Origin: Streptomyces acidicola
Lineage (GTDB): Bacteria; Actinomycetota; Actinomycetes; Streptomycetales; Streptomycetaceae
Direction of reading: 5' to 3'
DNA length: 64,000 bases
Assembly: GCF_009377235.1 (NCBI RefSeq)
Contig: NZ_VMNX01000003.1
Coordinates: 1-64,000 of the forward strand
Below, piece by piece: positions 31,691 through 54,772 of the stretch (positions within the stretch are counted from its first letter, which is position 1; each line of letters begins with the position of its first letter). The translations under genes and the position numbers were made by a program. The notes beneath the pieces were generated by a model that had not been told where the DNA came from, ran no database searches, and saw only the letters and a program-made list of their open reading frames with translations.

Positions 31691-31775
31691 GCTCCCCGAT
31701 CCGACGCACATGTTCTGCCCGCCCTCGGCCGTCCCTTCTCGCCGGGGGCTCCAGCCTGCCCTGCCACCCCACCTC

Positions 31776-31818
31776 TTGTGGAACCCTGCACCGGACATAT
31801 TTGTGGAACGGAGTACCA
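31776..31818. promoter_or_regulatory. Repeated operator-like motif before SDR gene
   Basis: TTGTGGAAC occurs at 31776-31784 and again at 31801-31809, 25 bp apart. The second copy forms TGGAACGGAGTACCA (31804-31818), an imperfect palindrome with TGGAAC/GTACCA arms. It lies about 50-90 bp upstream of the SDR start and is a plausible regulator site. Confidence 0.45.
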
Positions 31819-31866
31819 TAAATGTTCGGGTGCCGGTACGGCCCCAGAAATGCAGAGGAGGGCGTC

Positions 31867-32649
31867 GTGGCGGAGCAGCTCGACGGCAAACGGATCATCG
31901 TCACTGGCGGCGCTCAAGGTATCGGCGAGGCGGCGGTGCGAGCCTTCACCCGTGAAGGGGCGCAGGTCTACTCGTTCGACATCGCTGAGGACGCCGGCGC
32001 GCGCGTCGCCAAGGAGGCGACAGCGGCAGGCCCTGGCGCCGCGTCGTTCCGTCGCACCGACATCACCGACAAGGCCGACACCGGTGCGGCGTTCGACGAT
32101 GCCGTTACCGCACTGGGAGGACTGGACGTCCTGGTGAACGTCGCCGGCCTGCAGCGCAGTTCCGCCGCCGCGGACATCACGGACGAGCTGTGGGACACGG
32201 TGTATCGGGTCAACGTGCTCGGCACCATCCACACCAACCAGGCTGCCTATCGCGCGATGAAGCCCTCCGGGGCCGGGGCGATCATCAACTTCGGCTCCAT
32301 GTCCGGATTCACCGGCGAACTCACCAATGCCGCCTACGGCTCCTCCAAAGCCGCCGTCCACACCTGGACCCGCACCGTCGCCCGCGAATGGGGACCCGAC
32401 GGCATTCGCGTCAATGCCGTGCTCCCCTACGTGAACACGCCGATGTTCGACAAGTACCGCAACTCCCTCACCCCCGAGGAGCTCGCCGCCTACGACGCGG
32501 AGATCGCCAAGTCCATCCCCCTGGGCGGTCGCTTCGGCAACGCCGACGAGGACCTCGCCCCGGTCCTGGTCTTCCTCGCCGGCGATGCCTCCCACTTCAT
32601 CACCGGCCAGCTGCTGCCCGTCGACGGCGGCCTCACCTCGGTGCGCTGA
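31867..32649 (+). CDS. Short-chain dehydrogenase/reductase
   Basis: A 260-residue classical SDR: nucleotide motif TGGAQGIG near residues 13-20, NVAG (residues about 88-91), catalytic Ser in NFGSMSG, YGSSK as the Tyr-x-x-x-Lys, and the C-terminal [12 protein letters not shown]. It oxidises an alcohol or reduces a ketone with NAD(P). GTG 31867 was chosen because AGAGGAGG lies 6 bases upstream; a longer frame from 31822 would overlap the promoter. The next gene, an alcohol dehydrogenase, follows by 57 bp and the two may act on the same substrate. Confidence 0.88.
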
Positions 32650-32706
32650 CCCTCTCCCGGGAACACCAGCGGCACCACCCGACAAAGGAACGAAAGGCTC
32701 CACCCC

Positions 32707-33645
32707 ATGAAGGCATGGCAGTTCACTGGCATCGACGAACCACTACGTCTGGTCGACTTGGCGGACCCCCTGCCCGGCCCGGACGAGATCGTGGTGGACG
32801 TCAAGGCAGCAGGCCTGTGCCACAGTGACGTCAGCTTCGTGGACGGCACCATCACCGCACTACTCGGATCCGTCCCCATCGTGCTCGGCCACGAGACCGC
32901 TGGCATCGTCTCGGCCATCGGCAGCGACGTACACGCCTTCGCCATCGGTGACCGCGTCGGCATCCCCGCCACGACGGAAGGCCCCGGGACGGCTGTCGAC
33001 GGCGGGTTCGCCGAGAAGGTACGTGTCAAAGAGCGGCTCGTCGTCCGCCTCCCCGACGCGGTCAGCTTCGAGCAGGCCGCACCGGCCACGGACGCGGCGC
33101 GCACCGCCTACCGGGCCGTGCGCACCTTCGGCCGTGTCGAGGAGGGGACGAGGGTCGGCATCATCGGCTTCGGCGGACTGGGCTCCCTCGGAGCGCAAAT
33201 CGCCCGGGCCTTCGGCGCACAGGTCTACGTGGCTGAGATCAACGAAGCCGTCTGGCCGAACATCCGGGCCTTCGAGCCCGCAGGCATGTCTGCCGACATC
33301 CGTGACTTCGAGGATGCCCAGCTCGACGTGATCATTGACTTTGCCGGTTTCGGCACCACCACGGCCTCCGCCATCGATGCCGTTCGGCACGGCGGCCGGG
33401 TCGTGCAGATCGGCATGGCCCGCGAGTCCGCAACCCTGTCGATGCAGAAGATCATCCTCAAGGAGATCACCCTGGTCGGCGCCTCCAACGGCGAGAAGGC
33501 CGAATGCGAGGCTGTGCTTGACCTGATTGCCCGGGGCAAGATCAGCTCCAGGACCGTGCCGATCACCTTCGACCAGATCCCCCAGTACCTCGACAAGCTC
33601 CGCAACGGCCAGGTCGACGGACGCGCCGTCGCGGTGATCTCCTGA
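32707..33645 (+). CDS. Zinc alcohol dehydrogenase without the structural-zinc lobe
   Basis: A 312-residue medium-chain dehydrogenase. Catalytic zinc ligands are in GLCHSD (Cys36), GHETAG (His/Glu) and PATDAARTAY. The cofactor motif is GFGGLGSLGAQ near residues 158-168. The four-cysteine lobe that binds structural zinc in classical ADHs is replaced by the short IPATTEGPGTAVDGG, making the protein shorter than the usual 340-350 residues. ATG is preceded by AAAGGAACGAAAGG. It is paired with the SDR gene upstream and may carry out a second oxidation step. Confidence 0.85.
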   Translation: MKAWQFTGIDEPLRLVDLADPLPGPDEIVVDVKAAGLCHSDVSFVDGTITALLGSVPIVLGHETAGIVSAIGSDVHAFAIGDRVGIPATTEGPGTAVDGGFAEKVRVKERLVVRLPDAVSFEQAAPATDAARTAYRAVRTFGRVEEGTRVGIIGFGGLGSLGAQIARAFGAQVYVAEINEAVWPNIRAFEPAGMSADIRDFEDAQLDVIIDFAGFGTTTASAIDAVRHGGRVVQIGMARESATLSMQKIILKEITLVGASNGEKAECEAVLDLIARGKISSRTVPITFDQIPQYLDKLRNGQVDGRAVAVIS

Positions 33646-33920: not shown

Positions 33921-34538
33921 TCAGGACTGCCGCTGGAGTCCGATCAGTGCGCTGTCGGCCAGCTCCTGGCCGACTTGCTCCGCGGAGAGTTCTCCTTCGG
34001 GTGAGAACCATTCCGTGGCGGAATTGAGCATGCCGATGATGGCAAGCACCGAGACCCGGGGGTTCTTGACTCTCCGGATTTCCTTTTTCCTGATGCCGGT
34101 CCTGAGGATGCGGGTGAAGATTTCCTCGTACTGGCCGCGCAGTTCGATGACCCGTTCCTGTTGCGGAGCGCTCAGATAGGTCCACTGATGGAATGCCACG
34201 CGGGTCTGCGGCAGCGTCTCGGCGAGTACCCGCATGTGCGCGACGATCGCCCTGCGCAGCCGGTCCGGTGCGGTGGTGGCCGACTGGATCTCGGCCTGGA
34301 TGACGTCGAGATAGTTCTGAATGCCGTGTTCCACGATCCGCATGAGGATGTCCTCTTTCTTGCGGATGTGAACGTACAGGCTTCCGGGCAGGATCCCGAC
34401 CGCGTCGCTGATGTCCCGCATGCCGACAACCGGGTAGGTCTTCTCGCTGAACAGGGCCACCGCGGCCGCTTCGATGCGTTCGACGGACACCGGGCCCGCC
34501 TTCTGCTCCGGACCCTGGGTCCTTGATCGCACCGCCAA
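33921..34538 (-). CDS. TetR-family regulator of the catabolic island
   Basis: A TetR regulator of about 205 residues. Its helix-turn-helix is MRDISDAVGILPGSLYVHIRKKEDILMRIV, followed by a helical ligand-binding domain. I favour TTG 34538, 8 bases after GGGGAGG; GTG 34532 and GTG 34559 are alternatives, and none is certain. A copy of the island's 16-bp palindrome is at 34563-34578, immediately upstream, so it probably autoregulates. Eight other copies of that motif precede transcription units across the next 19 kb. It is the last gene of the crotonase/thiolase block. I infer that it represses the whole island and is released by an intermediate, perhaps a CoA ester. Confidence 0.85.
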   Translation of the reverse strand: MAVRSRTQGPEQKAGPVSVERIEAAAVALFSEKTYPVVGMRDISDAVGILPGSLYVHIRKKEDILMRIVEHGIQNYLDVIQAEIQSATTAPDRLRRAIVAHMRVLAETLPQTRVAFHQWTYLSAPQQERVIELRGQYEEIFTRILRTGIRKKEIRRVKNPRVSVLAIIGMLNSATEWFSPEGELSAEQVGQELADSALIGLQRQS

Positions 34539-34562: not shown

Positions 34563-34578
34563 CCTAACAAGTGATTGT
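34563..34578 (-). promoter_or_regulatory. TetR operator, site 1 (autoregulatory)
   Basis: CCTAACAAGTGATTGT on the plus strand, or ACAATCACTTGTTAGG read towards the gene. It fits ACAAWC-N4-GTTWGT, about 25 bp before the TetR start. Confidence 0.75.
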
Positions 34579-34590
34579 ACAGGAGAGTGA

Positions 34591-35475
34591 TCAGTGATCC
34601 TCTGAGCGCCCCCGTGCCGCGTCCGTACCGGCCGTGCCGTTCGGACGGGCCCGGCGGTTGAAGTGCGGGGGCCGGTGATCGAGGAAGGCGTCGATGCCCT
34701 CGGACAGGTCATCGGAGTGGTGCAGCGCGGCGACAGCCCAGAAACCGGCGTTCATCGCTGTCGTGAGATCGACCTGCCAGGCAGCACGGAGTGCCTGCTT
34801 CGTCGCCTCGATGGCACGCCATGACTTGGCGGCTATACGGCAGGCCAGTTCCACCGCGGACGGAATCAGCTCGTCCGGCCCGACCACGCGGTTGACGAGG
34901 CCGATCTCCAGGGCGCGGGAGGCGTCGATCACCTCGCCGGTGAGGGCCAGTTCCGCGGCGACACCGGAGCCCACGAGCCGGGGCAGGAACCAGGACCCGC
35001 CGTTGCCGGGCGGCAGCCCGAGGTTGATGTAGGTCTCGCCCAGCTTCGCTCTCGTGGAGCAGATACGCAGATCGCAGGCGAGGGCCAGATCGAGGCCACC
35101 GGCCGTGGCCCCGCCGTTGACGGCCGCCACGATCGGCAGCCGCGAGGCGACGAGGCGCTGGGTGACCGGGAAGAGAATGCGCGCGTTGTACGGCTCCTGC
35201 TCGACGGCGAACCGCTCGTCAAGGTACCGGCGCATGGCTCTCAGGTCCGCGCCCGCCGAGAACTGCCGTCCCGCGCCGGTGAGGACGAGGCAGCGGACCG
35301 ATCGGTCGTCCTCCAGTTCGGTGAGGGCCGCGAGCAGGTCACGCGCCAGCTCGGGGACCACGCCATTGCCGTGGTCCGGCCTGTTCAAGGTGATCAGGGC
35401 CACGCCGTCCGCCACGCGTTCATGGAACACGGTCCCGCGTTCCACCGCGCCGGCGCTGCCGGGGGAGATGCCCAT
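34591..35475 (-). CDS. Enoyl-CoA hydratase/isomerase (crotonase)
   Basis: A 294-residue crotonase-fold protein. Oxyanion-hole motifs are SAGADLRAM and NGGATAGGLDLALACDLRI. The catalytic Glu region is GETYINLGLPPGNGG. It should hydrate or isomerise an enoyl-CoA, or cleave a second cyclic diketone CoA-like intermediate. The tail (RRARPNGTAGTDAARG) is disordered. It starts 3 bp after the thiolase stop and is part of the operon running from 39657 towards TetR, so it belongs to the same pathway. Confidence 0.85.
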   Translation of the reverse strand: MGISPGSAGAVERGTVFHERVADGVALITLNRPDHGNGVVPELARDLLAALTELEDDRSVRCLVLTGAGRQFSAGADLRAMRRYLDERFAVEQEPYNARILFPVTQRLVASRLPIVAAVNGGATAGGLDLALACDLRICSTRAKLGETYINLGLPPGNGGSWFLPRLVGSGVAAELALTGEVIDASRALEIGLVNRVVGPDELIPSAVELACRIAAKSWRAIEATKQALRAAWQVDLTTAMNAGFWAVAALHHSDDLSEGIDAFLDHRPPHFNRRARPNGTAGTDAARGRSEDH

Positions 35476-35478
35476 CCG

Positions 35479-36654
35479 CTACCCCACCCCGACCAGAACG
35501 GTGGCCACGGCGGCCGCGTAGGCGCCCGCGAGCCATCCGCCCGCGTTGACAGCCATGGCGACCTGTGCCCCGTCGACCTGCCGTCCGCCCGCCCTGCCCA
35601 GCAACTGGTCGTAGAGCTCCACGAGTTGCGCGCAGCCCGTGGCGCCGATGGGATGGCCTCGGCTCATCAGCCCGCCGCTGACGTTCACCGGCAGCCGCCC
35701 GCCCAGGGCGGTGGCTCCGGAGCGGGCCAGCACATGCCCCTCCCCGGCCGTGCACAGGCCGACCTCGGCGTACTGGAGGATCTCCGCCGGGGCCGCGGCA
35801 TCGTGCAGTTCCAGCAGGTGCAGATCCTCGGGGCCGATACCGGCGTCCTCGTACGCGGCCAGTGCGGCGACGGCCACGGGCGCCGACCCCTCGCCCTGTC
35901 CGGCGGTCAGGCGGGTCGCGCGGATCTCACACCTGCCCCTGCCGTGCCGGCGCGCGTACGACTCCGAGCAGAGCACCACTGCGGCGGCGCCGTCCGTGGT
36001 GGGCGAACACATGGGCAGCGTGAGCGGATCGACCACCATGCGTCCGGCCAGTACCTCCTCCAGAGTCTGCGTCTGCTGGTACTGCGCGCGCGGATTGAGC
36101 GACGCGTGCGTACGGTTCTTCACCGCCACGGCCGCGAAGTCCTCGATGGCGGCCTCGTAGTCGTCCAGGTAGCGCTTGGCCTCGTGCGCGTAGACCTCGA
36201 TGAACACCGAGTTCCGCGCGGGGGTGCCGTCGTCACCGCGGGGGGAGACGGCGACGTCCGTGGCGCCCTGCAACGCGCCGAAGGTCCGGGCCTTGTTCTC
36301 GTGGGACATCTTCTCCACACCGACGACGAGCGCGACCTCGCACCGGCCCGCGAGGATCGCCTCGAAGGCCAGTTGCACCGCGGAACTGCCCGACGCGCAG
36401 GCGTTCTCCACGTTCACCAGCGGCACCCCCGCCAACCGTGTCCCCTGCAGCGCGACTTGACCGCGGATCATCTCCTGACCGGACACCAGGCCGGCCGCCG
36501 CGTTGGCCATGAAGACCCGTTGGACGGCGTCGTCGGGCACACCGGAGTCCGCCAGCGCCTCCCGTACGACCGTCTGCACCATGGCCTGTTCGCCGCGCCG
36601 GAGATTCCGGCCGAAGCGGGTCATGCCGACGCCGGCGATGAACACCTTGCTCAC
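35479..36654 (-). CDS. Thiolase / SCPx-like acetyl-CoA acyltransferase
   Basis: A 391-residue thiolase. The nucleophile Cys lies in NACASGSSA near residue 87, and GHPIGATGCAQ carries the catalytic His of the C-terminal half. It likely performs thiolytic cleavage of a 3-oxoacyl-CoA. GTG 36654 is chosen because GGAAGGAGG lies 6 bases before it; a GTG at 36660 abuts that site and is less likely. It is followed directly by the crotonase gene. Unlike the neighbouring thiolase-like protein at 37173-38369, it retains its cysteine. Confidence 0.88.
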   Translation of the reverse strand: MSKVFIAGVGMTRFGRNLRRGEQAMVQTVVREALADSGVPDDAVQRVFMANAAAGLVSGQEMIRGQVALQGTRLAGVPLVNVENACASGSSAVQLAFEAILAGRCEVALVVGVEKMSHENKARTFGALQGATDVAVSPRGDDGTPARNSVFIEVYAHEAKRYLDDYEAAIEDFAAVAVKNRTHASLNPRAQYQQTQTLEEVLAGRMVVDPLTLPMCSPTTDGAAAVVLCSESYARRHGRGRCEIRATRLTAGQGEGSAPVAVAALAAYEDAGIGPEDLHLLELHDAAAPAEILQYAEVGLCTAGEGHVLARSGATALGGRLPVNVSGGLMSRGHPIGATGCAQLVELYDQLLGRAGGRQVDGAQVAMAVNAGGWLAGAYAAAVATVLVGVG

Positions 36655-36762: not shown

Positions 36763-37176
36763 TCACCGCGGGTTGAGCCGGAACCAGGCCACCGGACGCC
36801 GGAGGACCTCCTCCGGGGCAGCGGGATGAAACTCCACAGGCGCGTCACACGCGTACGCGTTCCATTCGCCGTCGGCGTCGGGCCACAGCCGGCCGAGCAG
36901 CTGGACGTCCTCGGCCAGTCGCACCACGCCGAGCGCGTACGGTGTGTCCGCGTCGAATCCACTGGGCGCGCCGAACCGCTGGACGGCGAAGCTGAGCAGA
37001 ACCCCCCTGCCCGAAGCGGAGATCCAGCCCAGATCCCGTTCGTGGCAGACGGGGCAGCGGTGGCGCGGATACATGACGGCCTGATCGCACGCCTTGCAGT
37101 GCTGGAGGACGAGCCGTCCCCGGCCCAGTGCCTCGTAGTACGGCTCGGTGATCGCGGCCATGCCGGGCTCCGTCAT
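36763..37176 (-). CDS. OB-fold zinc-ribbon protein (DUF35), thiolase partner
   Basis: A 137-residue DUF35 protein. The zinc ribbon has CKAC (Cys27, Cys30) and CPVC (Cys41, Cys44), followed by an OB-fold domain. Such proteins form complexes with thiolase-like enzymes and are required for their activity, notably the steroid side-chain aldolases. Its ATG overlaps the stop of the Cys-less thiolase gene (ATGA, 37173-37176), which supports a stable complex with that protein. Confidence 0.88.
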   Translation of the reverse strand: MTEPGMAAITEPYYEALGRGRLVLQHCKACDQAVMYPRHRCPVCHERDLGWISASGRGVLLSFAVQRFGAPSGFDADTPYALGVVRLAEDVQLLGRLWPDADGEWNAYACDAPVEFHPAAPEEVLRRPVAWFRLNPR

Positions 37177-38369
37177 CGAGACACCCTTTCCAGCAGGAGT
37201 ACCTGGCTGTCCATGTAGGTACCGCCGGATCCCCCGCAGACGGCACGTGCGGCACCCTCGATCTGCCGTGCGCTGCCCGCACGGCCGAGGAGCTGGCGCA
37301 CGGCTTCGGCCAGCAGCGCGGTACCTCCGCCGACCCCCGTGTGCCCGGCGGAGAGCAGCCCGCCGTTGGTGTTGACGGGCAGCCGCCCGCCGGGGGAGAA
37401 GTCACCGGCGGCGAACATCCGGGCGGCGTCGCCGACCGGGGCGAGACCGAGGCCCTCCAGGGCGATCGCCAGCACGGCCGCGTAGGAGTCGTACACCTCG
37501 GCGATGTCGGCGTCGCCCGGACCCCAGCCGGCCTGTTCGTAGGCCTGTGCGCTTGCCGTGGGCCAGCCCAGCACGGCGAGGTCGGGTTCCTGGCCGATGC
37601 TGTAGTGGGACACGCACCCGCCGGAGCCGGCGATGCGTACCCAGGTTTCGTGGGACGCGCGGGCCCGCTCCGCGCCGGTCAGCACCAGTGCCACCGCGCC
37701 GTCGGCCATCATCGGGCATTCGAAGGCGCGCAGCGGGTCGGAGACCAGGCGCGAATCGAGCACCTGCGCCACGGTGAGCGCCCTGTCGCGGTACATGGCG
37801 TTCGGATTGAGCCGCGCCCACTCGCGCAGGGCGACGCATACCGATGCCATCTCCTCGGCCGTCGCGCCGCTGACCGCCATGTAGCGCCGGGCGATCAGTG
37901 CGCCGACCGCGTTGAAGGACAGGCCCGACGCCTTCTCCCACTCGCGCGGGATCCCGTTGGCGGTCAGCATGTCGATCATTTCGCCGACCGGCGCCGATCC
38001 CCATTTCTCGGCCTGGAGGATCAGCACGTTGCGCGCATGCCCGGCGGCGATCAGACTCGCCGCGGTGCGTACGGTGTTGTCGCTGGTCGACCCGCCGGAG
38101 TGAAGCATCACGCTGCTCTTGGCCCGCCCGGCCAGGCCGAGCTCCTCGACGACGCGGGAGAAGACGAGGTCGGCCTGGTCGGCCGCGGAGTGCAGACAGG
38201 GGATGAGCAGGAGGGTGTCGATGTCGGTCATGGACAGGCCGGCGTCGCGAACGGCCTCGACGGCCACGTCGACCAGGCTGCCCATGAATGAGCGATCGGG
38301 GTAACGTCCCGACGGCAGCTCGGCGATACCGACGAAGGCGGCCTCGGCCATGGGTGCGGGGGCGGTCAC
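37173..38369 (-). CDS. Cys-less thiolase-like protein (candidate retro-aldolase)
   Basis: A 398-residue thiolase-fold protein of the lipid-transfer/Ltp group. Where true thiolases have NxCASG, this one reads LHSGGSTSDN, so the Cys position is Gly and thiolysis is not possible. It keeps NTNGGLLSAGHTG and a tyrosine-bearing EVYDSYAAVL segment. Family members of this type with a DUF35 partner catalyse retro-aldol cleavage of beta-hydroxyacyl-CoAs in steroid side-chain removal. The DUF35 partner gene follows with a 4-base overlap. GTG 38369 overlaps the MaoC stop (GTGA) and is preceded by AAGGAG. The order MaoC, aldolase-like, DUF35 suggests hydration followed by carbon-carbon cleavage. Confidence 0.8.
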   Translation of the reverse strand: MTAPAPMAEAAFVGIAELPSGRYPDRSFMGSLVDVAVEAVRDAGLSMTDIDTLLLIPCLHSAADQADLVFSRVVEELGLAGRAKSSVMLHSGGSTSDNTVRTAASLIAAGHARNVLILQAEKWGSAPVGEMIDMLTANGIPREWEKASGLSFNAVGALIARRYMAVSGATAEEMASVCVALREWARLNPNAMYRDRALTVAQVLDSRLVSDPLRAFECPMMADGAVALVLTGAERARASHETWVRIAGSGGCVSHYSIGQEPDLAVLGWPTASAQAYEQAGWGPGDADIAEVYDSYAAVLAIALEGLGLAPVGDAARMFAAGDFSPGGRLPVNTNGGLLSAGHTGVGGGTALLAEAVRQLLGRAGSARQIEGAARAVCGGSGGTYMDSQVLLLERVSR

Positions 38370-38905
38370 CGCGCTCCTTCCGTGGATGCTCGGTGGGATC
38401 CGGGAGCTCCGGGGCCCCCGGGGGCGTCCTGCGGACGCCGGCGTGCGAGGAGTACGGTGCGGAACCGCATGACCTCCTGGTCCCTCTGGTTGGTCACGGT
38501 GTAGTCGAGGCGCAGGGTCCCGTACGCCGGTTTGCTGCCGGGCTCGGCCGCAGCCACCTCGGCCCGTACCCGGATGGTGTCGCCGGGACGGACCGGGGCC
38601 AGCGCCCGCAGGTTCTGGCATTCGAGGAGGGCGACGATCGCGTCACCGAGGAAGCCGGAGAGCGCGATCCGGCCGACGGCGAGTGCGAAGGTGAGGGGGC
38701 CGTGGGCGATCCGGCCGCCGAACCGGGTGGCCCGGCCGTACTCCTCGTCGACATGCAGCGGGTAGTGGTCACCGGTGAGTCCGGCGAACGAGGTGATGTC
38801 GCCGATGTCGACCGTGCGGCCGGAGGAGAGCACGGCGTCGCCCACCGCGAAGTCCTCGAAGTAGTGGCGCGACCGGTTGAAGGCGCCCTTCGTTCCCGCG
38901 GTCAC
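38366..38905 (-). CDS. MaoC-like hydratase
   Basis: A 179-residue hot-dog fold protein. The hydratase-2 motif is [26 protein letters not shown], with Asp and His in the expected places. It should add water to an enoyl-CoA to give a beta-hydroxyacyl-CoA, which could be the substrate of the adjacent aldolase-like protein. The last 20 residues ([18 protein letters not shown]) look disordered. GTG 38905 overlaps the upstream oxocamphor-hydrolase-like gene as GTGA. Confidence 0.88.
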
Positions 38906-39657
38906 CGGTCGAGAGCGGCGAGCGCCTCGTGGGCCAGGCCGAGTCCGAGCTGCTCGTGCAGCAGGCGCTTGATCTCATGGGTGAGGACCACACGTGAGAA
39001 CCGCCGGGCGAGGGCCGGCTTGGCGGCGATCTCCGCGGCCAGTTCCCGTGCGCGGGGCAGCACTTGGGCAGCGGGGAGGACCTCGTTCACCACACCGTGG
39101 GCCAGTGCCTGGCGGGCGTCGATCTCCTGCCCGGTGAGCAGGAAGTAGCGGCCCCTGGTGGGGCCGAGAACATGCGTCCAGACCACGTGCGCACCGTCCC
39201 CCGGCACGATGCCGGACGGGAAATGCGGCCCGTCCTTGAACACGGTCGTGTCCGCCGCCACGACGATGTCGGACAGTACGGGGATCTCCGGGTGGATCAG
39301 GGCCGGTCCGTTGATCGCCGCGACCACGGGAACCTCGATGTTCATCAGGTTGGTGAGCAGTCGCCGGCCCTCGAACATGATGTGCGACCAGTCGGCCGCC
39401 GTCCCCAGCCGGAAACTTCCGAAGTCGATCTCCGCGCAGAAGGCCGCACCGGCCCCGGTCAGCAGGACCGCCCTGTTGGCGGGATCGCAGGCTATGTCGG
39501 TGAAGCAGTAGGCGAGTTCGTCGTGTGCCTGAGCCGTCCAGACGAGGCTGTCGTCGCCGGTGTGCAGAGTGACTTCGAGAACCCCGCTGTCGTGTCGGTC
39601 GAGACGGATGTTCTCGTACCGTTTGGCGTACTCGTCCAGGGAGGGGGCGATGGACAT
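38902..39657 (-). CDS. camK-like: 6-oxocamphor hydrolase-like beta-diketone hydrolase
   Basis: A 251-residue crotonase-superfamily protein. It resembles the Rhodococcus 6-oxocamphor hydrolase as I recall that sequence: [63 protein letters not shown] and LAHEALAA. All five active-site residues of that enzyme occur here at the same numbers: His45, His122, His145, Asp154, Glu244. The family performs retro-Claisen hydrolysis of a bicyclic beta-diketone (6-oxocamphor to campholinic acid), not enoyl-CoA hydration. ATG 39657 has GAGGT upstream and an island operator 14 bp further. It heads the run to TetR. Identity of the natural substrate is inferred. Confidence 0.88.
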
Positions 39658-39667: not shown

Positions 39668-40132
39668 TCAACGAACGGTTGTTTGTGTGGTGTCGAGCTG
39701 TTCCGTCCCGGACACCGGGACGTCCGGGCTGAACGGGCTGAACCGGCGGCTGCGGAACCGCCAGCCCTGCGTGGTGCGGGCGAAGTCGTCCTCGTAGCGG
39801 CCGACAGCCAGGACGCGCAGCCCCTCCGGTGTGATCCGGAGTGCGGCCACATAGGCGGTACCGGCGGCGCCCTCGGCGGTCCGCCGGAGCAGGATGTTGG
39901 TGACCAGGTGGCGTATGCCGGGGGAGTGGTGGGCGGCGGAACGCACCATGTCCGCCAGGGCCACGGTTCCCCGCACCGGCCGTGCGCCCTCCCGTAGGAA
40001 CGCGCCGTCGGCGGTGAACAGCCCGGCCAGTTGGTCCGGGCGCGCCTCGTCGTAGGCATACGAATAGCGTGCGTACAACTCGGTGATCTCGTGGCGCGCC
40101 ATGTCGTCGAGAGGGGGCGCGGATCCGGTCAC
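39668..40132 (-). CDS. SnoaL-like (NTF2-fold) protein
   Basis: A 154-residue NTF2-like protein: [26 protein letters not shown], then [10 protein letters not shown] and [17 protein letters not shown]. Members act as hydratases, isomerases, cyclases or small-molecule binders; for ring hydroxylases they also serve as small beta subunits. The actual role is unknown. GTG 40132 overlaps the ferredoxin reductase stop (GTGA). Its last codons overlap the operator at 39671-39686. Confidence 0.75.
39671..39686 (-). promoter_or_regulatory. TetR operator, site 2 (inside the 3' end of the SnoaL gene)
   Basis: ACGAACGGTTGTTTGT on the plus strand, ACAAACAACCGTTCGT in the direction of transcription. It overlaps the last codons of the SnoaL-like gene and lies 14 bp before the oxocamphor hydrolase-like start, so this block has its own regulated promoter. 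Confidence 0.8.
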
Positions 40133-41337
40133 AGCGTGCTCCTTTCCGTTGTGCGGATGGCCCCGGCGGAGCGCAGGGCCGCACGGCCCCGCAGGAACGC
40201 GCGGGGACTGTTGGCGGCGAACACGCCGGCCAGACGGCCGCGGCTCTTGTAGTGCACGACGACGGCGTCGCCGCCCCGGCCGTCCCCGACGACCGTGATC
40301 TCCACGTCCGCGCCGATGTGTCCGGCGAACTGCAGACGAAGACTCCCCTGGTCGGACCAGAAGAACCCGTCGTCCTCGGCGGCCTCCACGCCACCGCCGA
40401 CGTCGCCGAGGACGACTGCCTCGGCGACGCGCGCCGCGCTGTCGGCCGCCGCCGTCCAGTGCCCCAGGAGTCGGCACCCGGCGTCGTCGTGGAGGCACAT
40501 CACGTCCCCGGTGCCGAAGACGTCACGCGTTCCGGTACGTCCGGTGCGGTCGCAGACGAGTCCGTGGTGCACCTCAAGTCCGGCCGCGGACAGCCACTCG
40601 GTGTCGCGTACCACCCCGACCCCGACGACCACGACGTCGGCGACGACCTCCGATCCGTCGTCGAGCCGCAGCACCTGGGCGCCTGCCGTCTCGTACGCGC
40701 CCGTGACCGTGACGCCGGTACGGAAAGTCATGCCCCGGGCCAGGTGCCAGTCGCACACCCACCGTGCAGCCGTGGCACCGACGACACCGGCCAGCGGCAG
40801 CGCGGCCACCTCCAGCACGGTCACGGAACCGCCCAGTGAGAGCGCCGCGCACGCCACTTCCAGCCCGATGAAGCCGCCTCCTACCACCGTCACCCGACGC
40901 CCCGGCCCCAGCGCCGCGCCGAGCCGCCGGGCGTCCGCCGCGGTGCGCAGATAGTGCACCGCGGTAGAAGCGGGGAGCACCGGCAGTTCCCGGGGGCGTG
41001 CGCCCGTCGCCACCACGAGCCGGCCGTATCCCGTCTCGGTCCCGTCGGCGAAGCCCAGCGTGCGGGATCGCGGATCGAGGGCGGTGGCGTGTGCTCCGAG
41101 GACCAGCTCGATGCGCTGGTCGACGTAGTCCCCGGGCGCCTGGAAGCGGATCGCCTCGTCACCCCGGCTGCCGGTCAGGAAGCCCTTGGACAGCGGCGGA
41201 CGGTCGTACGGAGGTTCCGTCTCCTCGGAGTAGAGGCGGATGCGGCCGGTGTGCCCGAGATCGCGCAGGGTCTGGGCGGTGCGCACCCCCGCGAGCCCGG
41301 CTCCGACGATGATGATGTCGTCATGCCCGGCGCTCAT
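40129..41337 (-). CDS. Ferredoxin reductase (FAD, NADH)
   Basis: A 402-residue putidaredoxin-reductase-type flavoprotein. FAD motif IIIVGAGLAGVRTAQTL near residues 8-24, NAD motif VVGGGFIGLEVA near 150, and the FGTGDVMCLHD FAD loop. It passes electrons from NAD(P)H to ferredoxins. Two 3Fe-4S ferredoxin genes lie in the island (46213-46413 and 52045-52242) but this is the only reductase, so it probably feeds both the P450 and the Rieske oxygenase. ATG overlaps the acyl-CoA ligase stop (ATGA). Confidence 0.88.
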   Translation of the reverse strand: MSAGHDDIIIVGAGLAGVRTAQTLRDLGHTGRIRLYSEETEPPYDRPPLSKGFLTGSRGDEAIRFQAPGDYVDQRIELVLGAHATALDPRSRTLGFADGTETGYGRLVVATGARPRELPVLPASTAVHYLRTAADARRLGAALGPGRRVTVVGGGFIGLEVACAALSLGGSVTVLEVAALPLAGVVGATAARWVCDWHLARGMTFRTGVTVTGAYETAGAQVLRLDDGSEVVADVVVVGVGVVRDTEWLSAAGLEVHHGLVCDRTGRTGTRDVFGTGDVMCLHDDAGCRLLGHWTAAADSAARVAEAVVLGDVGGGVEAAEDDGFFWSDQGSLRLQFAGHIGADVEITVVGDGRGGDAVVVHYKSRGRLAGVFAANSPRAFLRGRAALRSAGAIRTTERSTL

Positions 41338-43070
41338 GCCGGTGTCCCGACGGGAGCCAGACCGAGCTCGGCGGTCGCCCGCTCGGCGAGCCGGAACTTC
41401 TGCACGCGTCCGGTCACGGTGACCGGGACGTCGGACGCCTGTGTGAACAGGACGACGGCGGGCACCTTGAACTTGGCGAGCCGCTCGGCGCAGTACGCGA
41501 CGAGTTCCTCGGGGGAGGGCCAACCGGACTCCTCCGCCACGATCCACGCGCACCCGGCCTCGCCCATCCGTTCGTGCGGGATGCCGACGACATACGCGGC
41601 CCGCACCCCCGGATGCTCCTCCAGCACCGCCTCGACCTCGCCGGGGACGACGAGTTCGCCTCCGCACCGATAGGTGTCCTTGCGCCGTCCGGTCAGGGTC
41701 AGGTACCCGTGCTCGTCGAAGCGGCCCAGGTCCCCCGTGCGCAGCCAGCCGTCGGCGTCGAACGCCGCCGCGGTCTCGTCCGGCTTGTCGTAGTAGCCGG
41801 AGGTCACCGCCGGTCCCCTGACGAGCAGCTCGCCGACCTCGCCGGCCGGCACCTCGGTGCCGGTCGCCGGGTCCACGGCCCGGTAGACGGCGAGCAGGCC
41901 GCCCAGCCCGGGATCGCCCGCCACTCCCGCCGGCTTCGGGCAGCCGTTCGTCGAGACGAGCCGCTCGATCGGGTCACCGGGGCGTGTGCAGAGCGTGGAC
42001 GCGGTGGTCTCCGTCTGCCCGTACGCGGTGAACAGTTCCTCGACGCCCAGCACTTCGAGCATCTCGCTCCATATCCCGGGGGCATGCGCGGCGCCGGAGG
42101 AGAACATCGTGGTGAGCGACGACAGGTCGTGCTGCCCGGCCCTGGCGGTGGCGAGTACCACGCTGGTCATCGCCGGTACGCAGATGAGCTCGTCGATGTG
42201 GTGGCGGCCGATGTCGTGCAGCATCCGGTCTGCGTCGAACACCGGTTGGGGGCAGATCGCACCGCCCACGAACAGCACGGGAACCATTGCCTCGACGTAG
42301 CCGAAGACGTGGTAGATCGGCAGCGCGAAGAGGATCCGTCTGCCGTCCTGGAAGGCGCGGGTGTAGGCACTGGCATAGGCGGTGCGCAGCACGGCGTCGT
42401 GCTGGAGCAGTGCGCCCTTGGCCACACCCGTGGTGCCGGACGTGTAGAGCAGGTCGGACGGGGCGAAGGGGTCGGCCGCCGCCGTGCGTTCGAACACCTC
42501 CTCGTCGCTGACGGACTGTCCCAGCCCGACGAGTTCCTCCAGTGTCCGTCCCCGGGACGGCGGTCCCCCGGTCCCCCTGACGAAGACGTGCCGGAGGCAC
42601 GGCAGTTCGGTGCCTCCCGCGTGCCGTTCCCAGTCCGGCGCGATCCGGTCCAGTGCGTCGAGATAGTCGATGCCCCGGAAGGCGTCCATGGTGATCAGTA
42701 CGACGGTGTCGGACTGGTTCAGTACATAGCGCAGTTCCTCGTGCCGCAGCAGGAAGTTGACCGACACGGAAACCGCGCCGATCCTGGCGACGGCGTACTT
42801 GAGCGCCACCGCCTCGGGGAAGTTGGCCATGTCGACGGCGACGTGGTCGCCCGCCCTCACCCCCAGCGCGAGCAGTCCGGCGGCCAGGCGTAGGGTCCAC
42901 TCGCGCACCTCAGCGTAGCTGTGGCTCCGGTCGTCGGCGAGGAGCAGTGGGCGATCGCCGAACTCCTCTGTTGCGGCGTCGAGTTGCTGGGCCGTGGTGC
43001 GCGGGATCCAGCGCGGGTGCCGTGCCTCCAGGGCGGCACGCCGATCGTGCGGCGGGGAGATGGTGGTCAT
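41334..43070 (-). CDS. Acyl-CoA synthetase / AMP-dependent ligase
   Basis: A 578-residue adenylate-forming enzyme. The P-loop is LLYTSGTTGVAKGALL, with AYGQTETT (A5 motif), LRTGDLGRFDEHGYL (A7/A8) and the C-terminal lysine in TVTGRVQKFRL. It activates a carboxylic acid with ATP and CoA. ATG 43070 overlaps the CaiB stop (ATGA). In this island the natural candidate substrate is the acid released by the beta-diketone hydrolase; this is inferred. Confidence 0.88.
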   Translation of the reverse strand: MTTISPPHDRRAALEARHPRWIPRTTAQQLDAATEEFGDRPLLLADDRSHSYAEVREWTLRLAAGLLALGVRAGDHVAVDMANFPEAVALKYAVARIGAVSVSVNFLLRHEELRYVLNQSDTVVLITMDAFRGIDYLDALDRIAPDWERHAGGTELPCLRHVFVRGTGGPPSRGRTLEELVGLGQSVSDEEVFERTAAADPFAPSDLLYTSGTTGVAKGALLQHDAVLRTAYASAYTRAFQDGRRILFALPIYHVFGYVEAMVPVLFVGGAICPQPVFDADRMLHDIGRHHIDELICVPAMTSVVLATARAGQHDLSSLTTMFSSGAAHAPGIWSEMLEVLGVEELFTAYGQTETTASTLCTRPGDPIERLVSTNGCPKPAGVAGDPGLGGLLAVYRAVDPATGTEVPAGEVGELLVRGPAVTSGYYDKPDETAAAFDADGWLRTGDLGRFDEHGYLTLTGRRKDTYRCGGELVVPGEVEAVLEEHPGVRAAYVVGIPHERMGEAGCAWIVAEESGWPSPEELVAYCAERLAKFKVPAVVLFTQASDVPVTVTGRVQKFRLAERATAELGLAPVGTPA

Positions 43071-44272
43071 CGAGGTGGTGCCGTCCCTTCCATCGCCGTT
43101 GACGGGGGCAGGTCGTCGATCTCTTCGCGGGTGAGCCCGGCTTCGGTGAGGACCTCCTCGGTGTGCGCGCCGAGTGCGGGCGGGTGCTTCATCGCGCAGT
43201 CGGCGTCGCTGTCGATGGGCAGCCGGATCTGTCGCAGTCCGGGTACTGTCCCCGGGTCCGCGGTGCGCAGAAGGCCCCGTTCCGCGGTCAGGGGGTGCGC
43301 CAGCGCCTCGGCCAGTGTGTGGACCGGACCGACCGGAACCCCGGCTTTCGCGATGCGGTCGAGCCAGTGGCGGGAAGGTGCCTGGCACAGTCGGTCCTCG
43401 ATCAGCGCGGCCAGTTCCATGCGGGCGGTGACTCGGTCGGCGACGCGGCGGAAGCGCGGATCCTCGCTCAGCCGAGGCAGGTCCAGGGCGTCGCAGAGCC
43501 GGCGGAACAGACGGTCGGTAGCGGCGGCGATCATGATGGTCCCGTCCTGGGTGCGGAACGCCTCGTACGGCGCCGTGCTGGGCCCGCCGGAGCCGAGACG
43601 CGGCGGGAACGCTCCGGTTCCCAGATAGCCCGTGATCTGGTGACAGAGCAGGAAGAAGCCGCTGTCGACGAGGCTGGCCGTCACCCGCTCGGCGCCGGAA
43701 CGTTCCTGACGCCGTGCGAGAGCGGCCATGATCGCGGTCGTCGCCCACAGGCCGGTCGAGATGTCCACGGCCGAGGGCGCGGTCCGGGCCGGTGGGCCGT
43801 CCGGGTCGCCGGTCATTTCCATGATGCCGGTGAACGCCTGGATCAGGGCGTCGTACCCCGGCAGACCGCGGCCGAGCGGTCCCTCGCCGAACGCGCTGAC
43901 CGAGCAGTACACGACCCGGGGAGCGACGCGGGCGAGGTCGTCGAAGCCGAGGCCCAGCCGTTCCGCCACCCCGGGCCGGAAGGACTCGACGACGACGTCG
44001 GCACCCCGCGCGATCCGCAGGACGGCGTCCCGCCCGGACGGGGTCCGGGCGTCGACGGCCACACTTCGCTTGTTGCGGTTGAGCGTGAGGAACACGGCGC
44101 TCTCCGCACCCCAGCGCGGCGACAGCCGGCGAGTCGCCTCACCGGTTCCGGGCGGTTCGATCTTGACCACGTCCGCACCGAGGTCACCGAGGACCATGCA
44201 GGCCAGCGGGCCGGCGATGTTCTCGCTCAGGTCCACCACGCGCAGGCCGGGGTAGGTCCTTCCCAGGCTCAC
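43067..44272 (-). CDS. CaiB/BaiF-family CoA-transferase
   Basis: A 401-residue class III CoA-transferase or acyl-CoA racemase. Typical motifs: VVDLSENIAGPLACMVLGDLGADVVKIEPP at the start, NRNKRSVAVD and the catalytic Asp in TAPSAVDISTGLWA. It may move CoA between intermediates or epimerise an alpha-methylacyl-CoA. GTG 44272 is the start. A divergent promoter region with an operator separates it from the acyl-CoA dehydrogenase gene. It heads the four-gene run through ligase, reductase and SnoaL genes. Confidence 0.87.
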   Translation of the reverse strand: MSLGRTYPGLRVVDLSENIAGPLACMVLGDLGADVVKIEPPGTGEATRRLSPRWGAESAVFLTLNRNKRSVAVDARTPSGRDAVLRIARGADVVVESFRPGVAERLGLGFDDLARVAPRVVYCSVSAFGEGPLGRGLPGYDALIQAFTGIMEMTGDPDGPPARTAPSAVDISTGLWATTAIMAALARRQERSGAERVTASLVDSGFFLLCHQITGYLGTGAFPPRLGSGGPSTAPYEAFRTQDGTIMIAAATDRLFRRLCDALDLPRLSEDPRFRRVADRVTARMELAALIEDRLCQAPSRHWLDRIAKAGVPVGPVHTLAEALAHPLTAERGLLRTADPGTVPGLRQIRLPIDSDADCAMKHPPALGAHTEEVLTEAGLTREEIDDLPPSTAMEGTAPPR

Positions 44273-44341: not shown

Positions 44342-44357
44342 ACAAACACTTGTTAGT
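44342..44357. promoter_or_regulatory. TetR operator, site 3 (divergent CaiB/acyl-CoA dehydrogenase promoters)
   Basis: ACAAACACTTGTTAGT in the 168-bp region between the divergent CaiB (44272) and acyl-CoA dehydrogenase (44441) genes. One site could control both directions. Confidence 0.8.
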
Positions 44358-44440: not shown

Positions 44441-45577
44441 ATGGACTTCCGGTTCACCGACGAACAGCAGCTGTGGCGGGACACGCTCGACGCGTTCATG
44501 GAGCGTGAGGTGGGACGCGACTACACGCGCAAGCACGACGAGTCGCGCGAGTTCCCGGAGGAGGCCTACCGGAAGATCGCCGACCACGGCTGGCTCGGAC
44601 TGCTGATCCCCGAGGAACACGGAGGCCTGGCCGCCGACCCGGTGATGTACGCGATCTTCTGCGAGGCGATGGCCAGGTTCAGTCTCGACTTCGCCGCCGC
44701 CGTCATGACGTCGATGTTCACGGCGACCAACATCGCCCACCACGGCACGGACGAGCAGCGCGAGCGCCACCTCCCCGGATTCCTGCGCGGCGACGTCAAG
44801 TTCAGCGTGTCCATCACGGAACCCGGTGCCGGATCCGATGCCGCCGGCCTGCAGACCAAGGCGGTGGCCGACGGCGACCACTTCGTGCTCAACGGCAACA
44901 AGGTGTTCTGCTCGGGCGCGCATCTGCCCGGCACGGTGATCACCGTACTGGCCCGGACCAGCCCCGACCGGCACAAGGGGCTGAGCCTGATCCTGGTGCC
45001 CAACACGGAGCCCGGGGTGGACATCCGGAAGCTCAACACGATCGTCCGCAGAAGCCTCGGCACCACGGAGATCTTCCTCACCGACGTGCGTGTACCGAAG
45101 GAGAACCTCATCGGTGAGATCGGCGGTGGCTGGGCCTACATCGGCGAACACCTGGAGTACGAGCGGCTGGGTCTGGCCGCGAGCTACGTCGGCAACGCCC
45201 GCACGGCCCTGGACGACACCGTCTCCTACACCAAGGGGCGGACCCAGTTCGGCCGGCCGCTCTCGTCCTTCCAGGTGCTCAAGCACCGCATGGCGCAGGA
45301 CGAGTGCGAGATCCGGGCCGCCCGGCTGCTGGTCTACGACGCCGCCACGAGGATGGCGCGCGGCGAACGGGCGCTCAAAGAGGTCTCCATGGCCAAGGTG
45401 TTCGCCTCGGAGGTGGCGTTCCGTACCGCGTTCAACGGGATGCAGGCCCTCGGCGGCTACGCGCAGCTCCCGGAGTACGACATGGAGCGCTACTTCCGTG
45501 AGGCCAAGCACGCGATGGTCGGCGGCGGCACCAGTGAGATCCAGCGGAGCATCATCGCCAAGGAGATGGGGCTGTGA
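44441..45577 (+). CDS. Acyl-CoA dehydrogenase
   Basis: A 378-residue FAD-dependent acyl-CoA dehydrogenase. SVSITEPGAGSDAAG (FAD and substrate contact), FGRPLSSFQVLKH, and the C-terminal GGGTSEIQRSIIAKEMGL with the base region. It forms the alpha-beta double bond that the hydratases would act on. GAAGGGG precedes the ATG. The next gene overlaps by GTGA, making a two-gene operon with a VOC protein. Confidence 0.9.
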   Translation: MDFRFTDEQQLWRDTLDAFMEREVGRDYTRKHDESREFPEEAYRKIADHGWLGLLIPEEHGGLAADPVMYAIFCEAMARFSLDFAAAVMTSMFTATNIAHHGTDEQRERHLPGFLRGDVKFSVSITEPGAGSDAAGLQTKAVADGDHFVLNGNKVFCSGAHLPGTVITVLARTSPDRHKGLSLILVPNTEPGVDIRKLNTIVRRSLGTTEIFLTDVRVPKENLIGEIGGGWAYIGEHLEYERLGLAASYVGNARTALDDTVSYTKGRTQFGRPLSSFQVLKHRMAQDECEIRAARLLVYDAATRMARGERALKEVSMAKVFASEVAFRTAFNGMQALGGYAQLPEYDMERYFREAKHAMVGGGTSEIQRSIIAKEMGL

Positions 45578-46134
45578 CCCCACAGCACGGCGTCGGCGCG
45601 GCGGGCTCCGGGGGCCGCCGCGCCACCTCGGTGGCCGACAGGGTGCGGACGGTCGACCACATCGGCATCGCCGTGCCTTCCGTCGCCGACGCCGCGGAGC
45701 TCTTCGCCGACGTGCTGGGCGGCCGCTTTCTCTCCGGCGGGGACAACGACGCGACCGGCATCCGGTTGCTGCACCTGGCGCTCGGCCGGTTCAAGATCGA
45801 GCTTCTGCAGCCGCTGCGGGACGACTCGATCGTCTCGCCGTTCCTTGCCGGCCAGGGTCCGGGATTCCATCATTTGACCCTGTTCGTGGACGACCTGCCC
45901 AGGACGGTCGACGCGCTGGAGGCGAACGGATACGTGCCGACCGGCACCAACACCGCCTCACCCCGGTGGAGCGAGACGTTCCTGCCGCCTCGGTCGACCT
46001 TCGGGGCCCTGTTGCAGTTCACGTCGACCACCGCCCGGTGGGACGTCCCGGCCCTCGACTACGGGTTGCGGGACGTCCTGGCGGGCCGGGTCGTGTGGCG
46101 CGACCACATAGCCTGCCTGCGGTCGGCGGACTGA
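45574..46134 (+). CDS. VOC-family protein, methylmalonyl-CoA epimerase-like
   Basis: A 186-residue glyoxalase/VOC protein. The two beta-alpha-beta modules contain VDHIGIAVPSV, FKIELLQPL, GFHHLTLFVDDLP and LLQFTST, the pattern of methylmalonyl-CoA epimerase and related acyl-CoA-handling VOC enzymes. GTG 45574 overlaps the acyl-CoA dehydrogenase stop (GTGA). It may epimerise an alpha-methyl acyl-CoA. The N-terminal 20 residues are extra relative to most family members. Confidence 0.78.
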   Translation: MTPQHGVGAAGSGGRRATSVADRVRTVDHIGIAVPSVADAAELFADVLGGRFLSGGDNDATGIRLLHLALGRFKIELLQPLRDDSIVSPFLAGQGPGFHHLTLFVDDLPRTVDALEANGYVPTGTNTASPRWSETFLPPRSTFGALLQFTSTTARWDVPALDYGLRDVLAGRVVWRDHIACLRSAD

Positions 46135-46212: not shown

Positions 46213-46413
46213 TCAGGAGTTGCGGGCGAAGGCGATGGCCTCGGCAGGACAGTCGTAGGCGGCCCGGCGCAGCGCCCCCGCTTCGTCCTCTCCCACCAGA
46301 TCGCGCTTCAGTGCGACGAGCCCGTCCTCACCGACATCGAACGCGGCGGCAAAGGCGATGGCGCAGTTGCCGTAGCCCTGGCACCTCTCGCGGTCCACCT
46401 TGATCGTGATCAT
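46213..46413 (-). CDS. 3Fe-4S ferredoxin next to the Rieske oxygenase
   Basis: A 66-residue ferredoxin with CQGYGNC (Cys11, Cys17) and Cys55 followed by Pro. Three cysteines in a C-x5-C...C-P pattern give a 3Fe-4S cluster, as in ferredoxins serving actinobacterial oxygenases. ATG overlaps the Rieske stop (ATGA), so it is the likely electron donor to that enzyme, itself reduced by the island's only reductase. Confidence 0.88.
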   Translation of the reverse strand: MITIKVDRERCQGYGNCAIAFAAAFDVGEDGLVALKRDLVGEDEAGALRRAAYDCPAEAIAFARNS

Positions 46414-47593: not shown

Positions 47594-47609
47594 ACAAACA
47601 CTCGTTTGT
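47594..47609 (-). promoter_or_regulatory. TetR operator, site 4 (Rieske operon)
   Basis: ACAAACACTCGTTTGT, a near-perfect palindrome 57 bp upstream of the Rieske start. Confidence 0.82.
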
Positions 47610-49253: not shown

Positions 49254-49269
49254 ACAAACAGTCGTTTGT
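49254..49269 (-). promoter_or_regulatory. TetR operator, site 5 (second ligase)
   Basis: ACAAACAGTCGTTTGT, 30 bp upstream of the ligase start. Confidence 0.82.
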
Positions 49270-49300
49270 ATAGTCTCCCTTGCTGGAGCATCGTGCACGC

Positions 49301-49316
49301 ACAAACGCTCGTTTGC
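49301..49316 (+). promoter_or_regulatory. TetR operator, site 6 (amidohydrolase operon)
   Basis: ACAAACGCTCGTTTGC, 21 bp upstream of the amidohydrolase ATG. Together with site 5 it forms a divergent pair 47 bp apart. Confidence 0.8.
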
Positions 49317-53192: not shown

Positions 53193-53208
53193 ACAAACAG
53201 TTGTTTGC
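53193..53208 (-). promoter_or_regulatory. TetR operator, site 8 (SDR)
   Basis: ACAAACAGTTGTTTGC, 91 bp upstream of the SDR start, in the divergent region shared with the membrane-protein operon. Confidence 0.8.
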
Positions 53209-53270
53209 TGCAAGCTGGCGTGTGTCGTGCGAGCTTATTGACGTCTCTGACGGGCGAGGTTACCTTCCGA

Positions 53271-54768: not shown

Positions 54769-54772
54769 TCAC

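Follow-up and report, generated by a model that had tools for sequence, protein, structure and literature searches.

The island and its 6-oxocamphor hydrolase orthologue

The DNA analyzed here, called the window, is a stretch of 64,000 nucleotides from Streptomyces acidicola (contig NZ_VMNX01000003.1, positions 1 to 64,000), in which genes were called from codon usage and named by Pfam. On its minus strand, an ATG-started open frame at 38902-39657 encodes a 251-residue orthologue of the Rhodococcus 6-oxocamphor hydrolase (OCH), the model retro-Claisen enzyme, within an island of approximately 33.9-53.1 kb that extends perhaps up to 55.1 kb. Judged from its genes, the cluster, which other soil actinobacteria share, seems to encode a complete and not yet described route for feeding on camphor-like molecules. 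In order of transcription, the minus strand carries genes for a CoA-transferase, an acyl-CoA ligase (ligase A), a ferredoxin reductase, a SnoaL-like protein, OCH, a MaoC-type hydratase, a thiolase-fold protein (Ltp), a DUF35 protein, a thiolase that has its Cys, a second crotonase, and a TetR regulator. Around this block stand an acyl-CoA dehydrogenase (ACAD), a VOC protein, a ferredoxin, a Rieske oxygenase, a second ligase (ligase B), an amidohydrolase, a MIP18-like protein, a cytochrome P450, another ferredoxin, and a short-chain dehydrogenase/reductase (SDR). An earlier sequence-only reading of this DNA had listed a P450, an SDR, ligases, a Cys-less thiolase, and a Rieske protein around OCH, and every one of them is present. 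The SnoaL-like gene (39668-40132) ends 10 bases ahead of the OCH start, and 4-base overlaps join OCH to MaoC, MaoC to Ltp, and Ltp to DUF35.

A phmmer search of the PDB reports the Rhodococcus OCH as the top hit (1o8u, 369 bits, E 1e-109; 1szo, 365 bits, E 3e-108), an E-value that excludes a chance match. The Anabaena beta-diketone hydrolase (ABDH, 2j5g) comes next with 238 bits (E 9e-70), and proteins named enoyl-CoA hydratases come third with at most 88 bits (E 9e-24 or weaker). The window protein and OCH share 165 of 247 aligned residues (67%), and His45, His122, His145, Asp154, and Glu244, the catalytic residues of OCH, are the same in letter and number; the five residues at the Rhodococcus numbers and the long similar stretches claimed in the sequence-only reading are thereby confirmed. 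The two proteins differ at position 121, Asn in OCH and Ile in the window protein, which varies even inside the OCH clade; they also come from different genera, and the reaction of the window protein is a predicted one. Domain models are less specific: Pfam assigns PF00378, and the 25 NCBIfam hits listed of 64 matches are general crotonase models, all under cut-off. The AlphaFold model is weak (pLDDT 63), with 1szo and 1o8u as its best Foldseek matches. As far as sequence can tell, the window protein is a true OCH relative of the beta-diketone-hydrolase type. OCH itself turns bornane-2,6-dione into alpha-campholinate, and to our knowledge its pathway is known only as far as this product.

Placement within the OCH family

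Alignment and tree were built from 37 OCH-family proteins and 12 other crotonases (49 rows). The window protein falls in a clade of 13 rows, which also includes OCH, the proteins of Rhodococcus sp. 008 and of two Pseudonocardia, and those of eight further genomes; a 100/100 branch separates it from the 12 other crotonases. Support for this clade is 90/99, under the level that the tool marks with a star, as is the 90/94 of the inner node joining OCH 1o8u; the 11-row subclade devoid of OCH 1o8u and of genome G1002 has 96/91. A first, smaller tree of 42 rows gave the OCH clade 99/98 for the 6 rows then known, and the placement with characterised OCH has a starred 99/94 in it. Approximately unbiased (AU) tests reject the grouping of the window protein with the enoyl-CoA hydratase 5xzd and a related hydratase of its own genome (p 3e-38), as well as its grouping with the second crotonases of the island and of Rhodococcus (p 7e-4). 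Joining the window row to the whole outgroup is not rejected (p 0.26), a result that concerns the root position only. The sequence-only reading had proposed phylogeny against enoyl-CoA hydratases as a check on its assignment, and the assignment comes through it, the protein clustering with OCH. Regarding the hydratase glutamates, Glu144 and Glu164 in the rat enzyme, the first is kept as Glu124, and the second is His145 in the window protein and in all 37 family members, so that the hydratase pattern is broken. At the level of sequence, identity as an enoyl-CoA hydratase is rejected by His145, the tree, and the AU tests.

The catalytic residues do not single out OCH within this family. His122, His145, Asp154, and Glu244 occur in all 37 aligned sequences and His45 in 35 of the 36 that have a letter there. 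The five-residue set is also found in the Anabaena ABDH and in lone homologues from unrelated contexts (Pantoea, Paraburkholderia, Deinococcus, and others). Being kept family-wide, it marks the beta-diketone-hydrolase type and not camphor; its use as proof of camphor specificity was rejected, since the lone homologues keep all of it. Of the earlier argument from the full catalytic set, the presence of the residues stands, and their specificity for OCH does not. In contrast, Leu38, Trp40, Phe79, and Phe82, which we take to line the pocket, occur together in 12 of 13 OCH-clade members, the exception being G1002, and in none of the 24 other family members. OCH is singled out by its clade, by this four-residue set, and by its neighbourhood, and not by the five catalytic residues; the window protein has the four residues in common with OCH. 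The Anabaena ABDH (2j5g, 2j5s), which belongs to the same family and has the same catalytic residues as given in the accessible part of PMC3584854, differs in being only 45-46% identical, in lying outside the OCH clade, and in having Phe at position 40 and Leu at 82. Other OCH-family genes, with 46-53% identity, are found on Deinococcus, Pseudonocardia, Paraburkholderia, and Pantoea plasmids (loci L028, L029, L049, L050, and L051). They adjoin xanthine-dehydrogenase-type genes, lactonases, cyclases, or alkene reductases, which suggests other beta-diketone substrates.

Conserved neighbours and operator-like sites

The cluster of Rhodococcus sp. 008 (locus L027) sits on pR8L1, a 694-kb plasmid typed mobilizable, and reciprocal best hits link it to most of the island. 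The closest pairs are ACAD (76%), Ltp (71%), the second crotonase (68%), OCH (66%), and MaoC (64%), followed by ligase A (62%), the CoA-transferase and the P450 (58% each), the P450-adjoining ferredoxin (57%), and the VOC protein (56%), and then by ligase B (55%), TetR (51%), the ferredoxin reductase and DUF35 (47% each), and the Cys-bearing thiolase (46%). Some pairs are weaker or fall outside the block: the SDRs match at 36%, another TetR (at 31136) at 53%, and two more pairs at or below 31%. OCH-clade genes of Rhodococcus, Pseudonocardia, and other actinobacteria are accompanied by most of the block made up of ACAD, MaoC, Ltp, DUF35, the odd crotonase, ligase, and TetR. A comparison of 26 OCH-family loci, some of them short stretches (L041, 12.8 kb), included 4 from the OCH clade (L027, L024, L033, and L023) and 22 others. 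Ltp and DUF35 orthologues stand beside OCH at L027, L024, and L033, the three OCH-clade loci with enough contig, L023 being a 6.5-kb contig that ends after MaoC. At the 22 loci outside the clade, no match exceeds 32% for Ltp, 33% for DUF35, or 28% for ACAD.

With the Ltp protein as query (E 1e-110) against 394 genomes of the class, its own genome and 7 of the 393 others match. In each of the seven, OCH (62-74%) lies within 2 kb of Ltp on one contig; a P450 orthologue (58-66%) is present in six, and the best P450 match in G1445 reaches only 37%. With OCH as query, at least 59% identity is reached in no other genome of the family sample (394), of the phylum sample (396), or of 150 genomes of one genus, and in 1 of 397 genomes of one order (G1002). 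The distribution of the cluster is rare and patchy. The sequence-only reading had called the arrangement one not known as described; it is not unique to this island, as it recurs in other genomes, and no description of it was found in the open literature, judged by titles and abstract openings, with subscription journals outside the scope. The main text of the 2026 pR8L1 paper (PMC13304129), as accessible, contains no word starting with camphor or terpen. It describes KSM-B-3M, a strain without pR8L1, and a sequenced cured clone whose loss is confined to positions 1-127,890; this clone should still have the cluster, located near 325-345 kb.

Ltp (37173-38369, minus strand) has a thiolase fold without the nucleophilic Cys and is a candidate retro-aldolase of the Sal/Ltp2 type. 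Its closest solved chains are CtSal 9myr (162 bits), 4u4e (149 bits), and Ltp2 (111 bits). Its motifs are identical in 11 of 11 orthologues: the thiolase Cys is replaced by Gly (HSGGSTSD), YDSY provides the Tyr base of the YDxx pattern, GHTG is present, and NTNGGLLSAGHTG brings a His to the position of Ltp2 Tyr344 and Sal Gln352. Catalysis has been attributed to Tyr294 and Tyr344 in Ltp2 and to Tyr302 and Cys304 in Sal, as stated in the accessible part of PMC12329534, which also reports that replacing Sal Cys304 by Ser abolishes activity and holds no mention of a YDSY/His set. The overlapping DUF35 gene (36763-37176, minus strand; PF12172, PF01796; best match 9myr_B) encodes a ChsH2-type zinc-ribbon OB protein with a C-x2-C-x10-C-x2-C zinc pattern in 4 aligned sequences, and this protein is the predicted Ltp partner. 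The island thus resembles the systems of the steroid aldolases Ltp2-ChsH2 (6ok1) and Sal-Shy (9myr) in its Cys-less thiolase fold, YDxx Tyr, adjoining zinc-ribbon DUF35, and MaoC and ACAD in the cluster. It differs by YDSY with His, as against YDHF with Tyr344 in Ltp2 and YDCY with Gln352 in Sal, and a monoterpenoid would take the place of the steroid as substrate. By its sequence the Ltp residue set is distinct from both; by analogy, its His is the likelier acid, and Ser would be no simple stand-in, given the loss of activity on Cys304 replacement in Sal. The uncharacterised thiolase-fold structure 4u4e is Cys-less and shows the same pattern (YDSF and His). The AlphaFold model of Ltp, built from 2 sequences, is weak (pLDDT 36).

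The MaoC-type hydratase (38366-38905, minus strand, 179 residues; PF01575), with orthologues at the OCH-clade loci, is the candidate for acting on an unsaturated side chain, and ACAD (44441-45577, plus strand) is assigned to PF00441. Downstream of DUF35 on the minus strand are an SCP2-type thiolase with its Cys (35479-36654; NACASGSS), present in all ten clusters where such a thiolase was found and not found in the KRD291 stretch, and the second crotonase (34591-35475). In 11 of 11 orthologues, the latter has Asp (GGLD) and Tyr (GETY) at the hydratase glutamates, which makes a plain hydratase unlikely, yet other crotonases vary there too; the role of C-C hydrolase for this candidate is a guess from these residues. 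From these comparisons, a PseudoMAG row (second crotonase) and a PseudoKRD291 row (thiolase) were dropped as mis-hits to other genes on short contigs.

The P450 (50834-52048, plus strand), candidate hydroxylase of a bicyclic ketone, has 4dxy (CYP101D2) and then CYP101D1 as best PDB matches, ahead of P450cam. Unlike CYP101 proteins, it has GGIAT instead of GGLDT and thus lacks the I-helix Asp-Thr pair. Its orthologues are 55-66% identical, and among the 9 loci with an orthologue of at least 55%, a ferredoxin adjoins the P450 in all 9 (52045-52242, plus strand, in the window), and 8 also have an orthologue (61-85%) of the Rhodococcus 008 SDR. The window SDR (52338-53102, minus strand; PF13561), candidate hydroxyketone dehydrogenase, differs from this Rhodococcus type, and a fragment 62-63% identical to it lies beside the P450 in Pseudonocardia locus L053. 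The Rhodococcus P450camr is named as a camphor 6-endo-hydroxylase in a title of the reference list of PMC12195689.

The remaining minus-strand genes encode the SnoaL-like protein (PF13577), also present in G1506 and G1536, the FAD-dependent ferredoxin reductase (40129-41337; PF07992, PF14759), the AMP-forming ligases A (41334-43070; PF00501) and B (47650-49224), and the class III CoA-transferase (43067-44272; PF02515). The VOC protein (45574-46134, plus strand) is methylmalonyl-CoA epimerase-like. The amidohydrolase-2 family hydrolase (49337-50422, plus strand; PF04909), 75-76% identical in G1506 and G1536, is followed by a MIP18/PaaD-like Fe-S assembly protein (50452-50739, plus strand; PF01883); both are present on the short contig of G1506. 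The oxygenase slot is variable. The window and G1536 have the Rieske alpha subunit (46410-47537, minus strand; PF00355, PF00848; 67% in G1536) with its adjoining ferredoxin (46213-46413, minus strand; PF13459), and no Rieske oxygenase was found at the Rhodococcus 008 cluster. A second type, a flavin monooxygenase with an SMP-30 protein and an SDR, is found in Rhodococcus 008, G1312, and G1346 (82%); by eye it has the Baeyer-Villiger pattern FxGxxxHxxxWP, and its best NCBIfam model is PtlE, far under cut-off. Luciferase-like proteins form the third type in KRD291, G1445, and G1002, and none of the three kinds occurs in the stretches compared of G1373 and G1360. Between 28 and 54 kb, the window holds nothing that matches the Baeyer-Villiger or luciferase-like queries; a luciferase-like monooxygenase gene lies at 12787-13893, 20 kb outside the island. 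Two luciferase-bearing OCH clusters also have a 73% conserved cupin protein (L024, 14823-15386; L033, 4462-5025) without a match at window 28-54 kb, and pR8L1 carries a second P450-ferredoxin-reductase-thiolase block (L027, 37019-40702), approximately 16 kb from OCH and 31-38% identical to island genes.

An operator-like palindrome, ACAAACANNNGTTTGT, occurs at 8 window sites, none with more than 2 mismatches, and each lies 22-129 bp ahead of an island gene. Counted on both strands, the window holds 16 matches as against 0.17 expected, and none of 100 shuffles reaches 16; the palindrome was spotted by eye in the window output and then counted, so that this count is post hoc and the other genomes are the independent evidence. 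A scripted scan of the window for symmetric palindromes gave nothing clear. Seven of the eight sites are intergenic. The site at 39671-39686, 22 bp before OCH, overlaps the last codons of the SnoaL-like gene; the others lie between the CoA-transferase and ACAD (44342-44357), before the Rieske gene (47594-47609), between ligase B and the amidohydrolase (two, 49254-49316), before the P450 (50766-50781), and between the SDR and a membrane module (two, 53193-53286). A ninth, weaker site with 3 mismatches precedes the TetR gene (34563-34578). The Rhodococcus cluster has 5 sites, 28-94 bp before its genes, one of them before the TetR orthologue, and G1506, G1536, G1445, and G1002 have 3 or 4 each and KRD291 has 1, giving 6 of 10 other clusters. 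On separate contigs of G1536 and G1506, the palindrome also occupies the gap from the P450 gene to the SDR gene, and it was found in none of 13 control loci. The TetR regulator (33921-34490, minus strand; PF17932, PF00440) is the likely reader of the palindrome, and from these sites the cluster is seemingly co-regulated.

At the right end, a plus-strand module of three membrane proteins (53408-55057; a 239-residue protein without Pfam match, a COX3-like protein, and a small one that is COX4-like by eye) likely belongs to the island. It sits behind operator-like sites, and a copy (48-55%) is found near OCH in G1373 (L078, 1737-3507). A transposase-type gene with an rve integrase core (55913-56812) lies just past this edge. 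Beside the left edge, 31136-33645 holds the second TetR, 53% identical to another TetR of pR8L1, an SDR, and a zinc dehydrogenase, which may belong to the island; no operator-like site was found in front of these genes.

A candidate camphor route and its alternatives

We read the island as probably a catabolic cluster under regulation that degrades camphor or a closely related bicyclic ketone through P450, SDR, OCH, and a CoA-dependent side-chain route, with camphor itself the likely substrate. What the sequences show is gene content, homology, association, and motifs; each reaction of the route is inferred. Degradation of a bicyclic ketone through a beta-diketone, as proposed in the sequence-only reading, gains support from a conserved cluster with a P450, ferredoxin, and SDR whose steps would precede OCH and a CoA-dependent side-chain module whose steps would follow it. 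In such a route, the P450 and its ferredoxin would hydroxylate the ketone, and the SDR would oxidise the alcohol to a bicyclic beta-diketone, bornane-2,6-dione in the case of camphor. The OCH orthologue would then, like its characterised counterpart, carry out a retro-Claisen hydrolysis that turns the diketone into a cyclopentanone acetic acid. A ligase would form the CoA ester of this acid, ACAD and MaoC would put a tertiary beta-hydroxyl on the ring carbon, and Ltp with DUF35 would release acetyl-CoA by retro-aldol cleavage, analogous to steroid Ltp2/ChsH2 and to Sal/Shy. From camphor, the remainder would be 4,4,5-trimethylcyclopentane-1,3-dione, a beta-diketone again, which OCH or the second crotonase may hydrolyze to 2,2,3-trimethyl-4-oxopentanoate. 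Speculatively, this oxo-acid would be finished by a ligase, the lineage-variable oxygenase (Rieske in the window, a Baeyer-Villiger type in Rhodococcus, a luciferase-like one in Pseudonocardia), and the Cys thiolase, Baeyer-Villiger oxidation, dehydrogenation, and thiolysis leading to isobutyryl-CoA and acetyl units, ten carbons in total. The two ligases, where present, would fit the two free-acid intermediates. The Pseudomonas putida cam pathway resembles this scheme in the expected substrate class and in where it ends: isobutyryl-CoA plus three acetyl units, the products suggested here, are also those of P. putida according to the accessible part of PMC4097962. It differs in that camphor is hydroxylated at C5 and the rings open after Baeyer-Villiger oxygenation, while the first ring would open hydrolytically here. 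A more detailed version, in which two hydrolytic retro-Claisen cuts flank a thiolase-fold retro-aldol cut, the YDSY/His proteins form a new aldolase subclass, OCH or the Asp/Tyr crotonase opens the second ring, and the late oxygenase is swappable, is put forward only tentatively, and we would sooner bet against it than for it.

Several observations weigh against the camphor route. The CYP101 match is modest (~180 bits), an ancestral CYP125 construct (175) outranks P450cam (~170), and Ala replaces the I-helix Asp of 4dxy in 5 of 5 aligned P450 orthologues. No P450 exceeds 36% in G1002, which has the OCH module, or 37% in G1445. In Ltp, the second catalytic residue of Ltp2 (Tyr344) or Sal (Cys304) is absent, with His and Ser in their places, which is why we call it aldolase-like and file it as neither. 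ACAD is missing from the KRD291 and G1506 stretches, a 72% fragment standing beside the P450 elsewhere in the KRD291 genome. A clear pair of ligases is limited to the window, Rhodococcus 008, and the two Pseudonocardia. In G1312, G1373, G1346, and G1360, ligase A is joined by a second ligase at only 37-39%, and the stretches compared show a single ligase in G1506, G1536, and G1002 (B-like) and in G1445 (A-like). Four of the 10 other clusters scanned (G1312, G1373, G1346, and G1360) lack the palindrome. Lastly, there is no conservation in the oxygenase slot, so that the late steps amount to guesswork.

Two alternatives deserve to be weighed, although we consider each of them unlikely. The same chemistry might serve another bicyclic ketone or terpenoid (fenchone, a compound of the borneol or 2-methylisoborneol kind, or a bicyclic sesquiterpenoid), with OCH acting on the corresponding diketone. 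The carbon skeleton is not fixed by any step, the OCH family with its 37 sequences is a wide one, camphor P450s are only modest relatives of the island P450, and the late oxygenases differ by lineage. Against this, the window protein is equally near to the characterised OCH (67%) and to its cluster-bearing relatives (59-74%), it shares the L38/W40/F79/F82 set with OCH, and, by our own reasoning, the ACAD-MaoC-aldolase module suits a product with a ring-CH-CH2-COOH group, as camphor would give. The other alternative, to which we give about as little credit, is that Ltp opens the ring, a ketone-side retro-aldol cleavage yielding a 3-oxoacyl-CoA that the Cys thiolase would then split by thiolysis, or that Ltp acts as a C-C lyase in some other way. 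The predicted tertiary hydroxyl would be beta to the thioester and to the ring ketone alike, a Cys-bearing thiolase accompanies Ltp in 10 of 10 clusters where one was found, and the Ltp catalytic residues are unlike those of Ltp2 and Sal; the DUF35-paired aldolases described in the accessible part of PMC12329534, however, cut the side chain beside the thioester.

A biosynthetic or detoxification cluster, with OCH tailoring a diketone and no growth pathway, is highly improbable. In general, Streptomyces-type genomes are rich in such clusters, and P450 and SnoaL-like proteins occur in both kinds; yet the island combines ligases, a CoA-transferase, ACAD, hydratase, the aldolase-like pair, and thiolase, much of it kept on the Rhodococcus megaplasmid and elsewhere, and the 30 window proteins scanned include no modular polyketide, peptide, or terpene synthase. 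We attach next to no weight to the OCH gene being an enoyl-CoA hydratase of ordinary beta-oxidation or of a steroid-like operon, for which the generic annotation (PF00378, general crotonase models) and the retained Glu124 would speak, against the family-wide His145, the tree and AU tests, and 369 bits to OCH versus at most 88 to hydratases.

If the camphor route holds, this conserved, seemingly co-regulated cluster names candidates for the hydroxylase, the dehydrogenase, and the later steps of the OCH route. The thiolase-fold retro-aldolases would then extend beyond steroids, and the island enzymes may be useful for biocatalysis on terpenoid rings.

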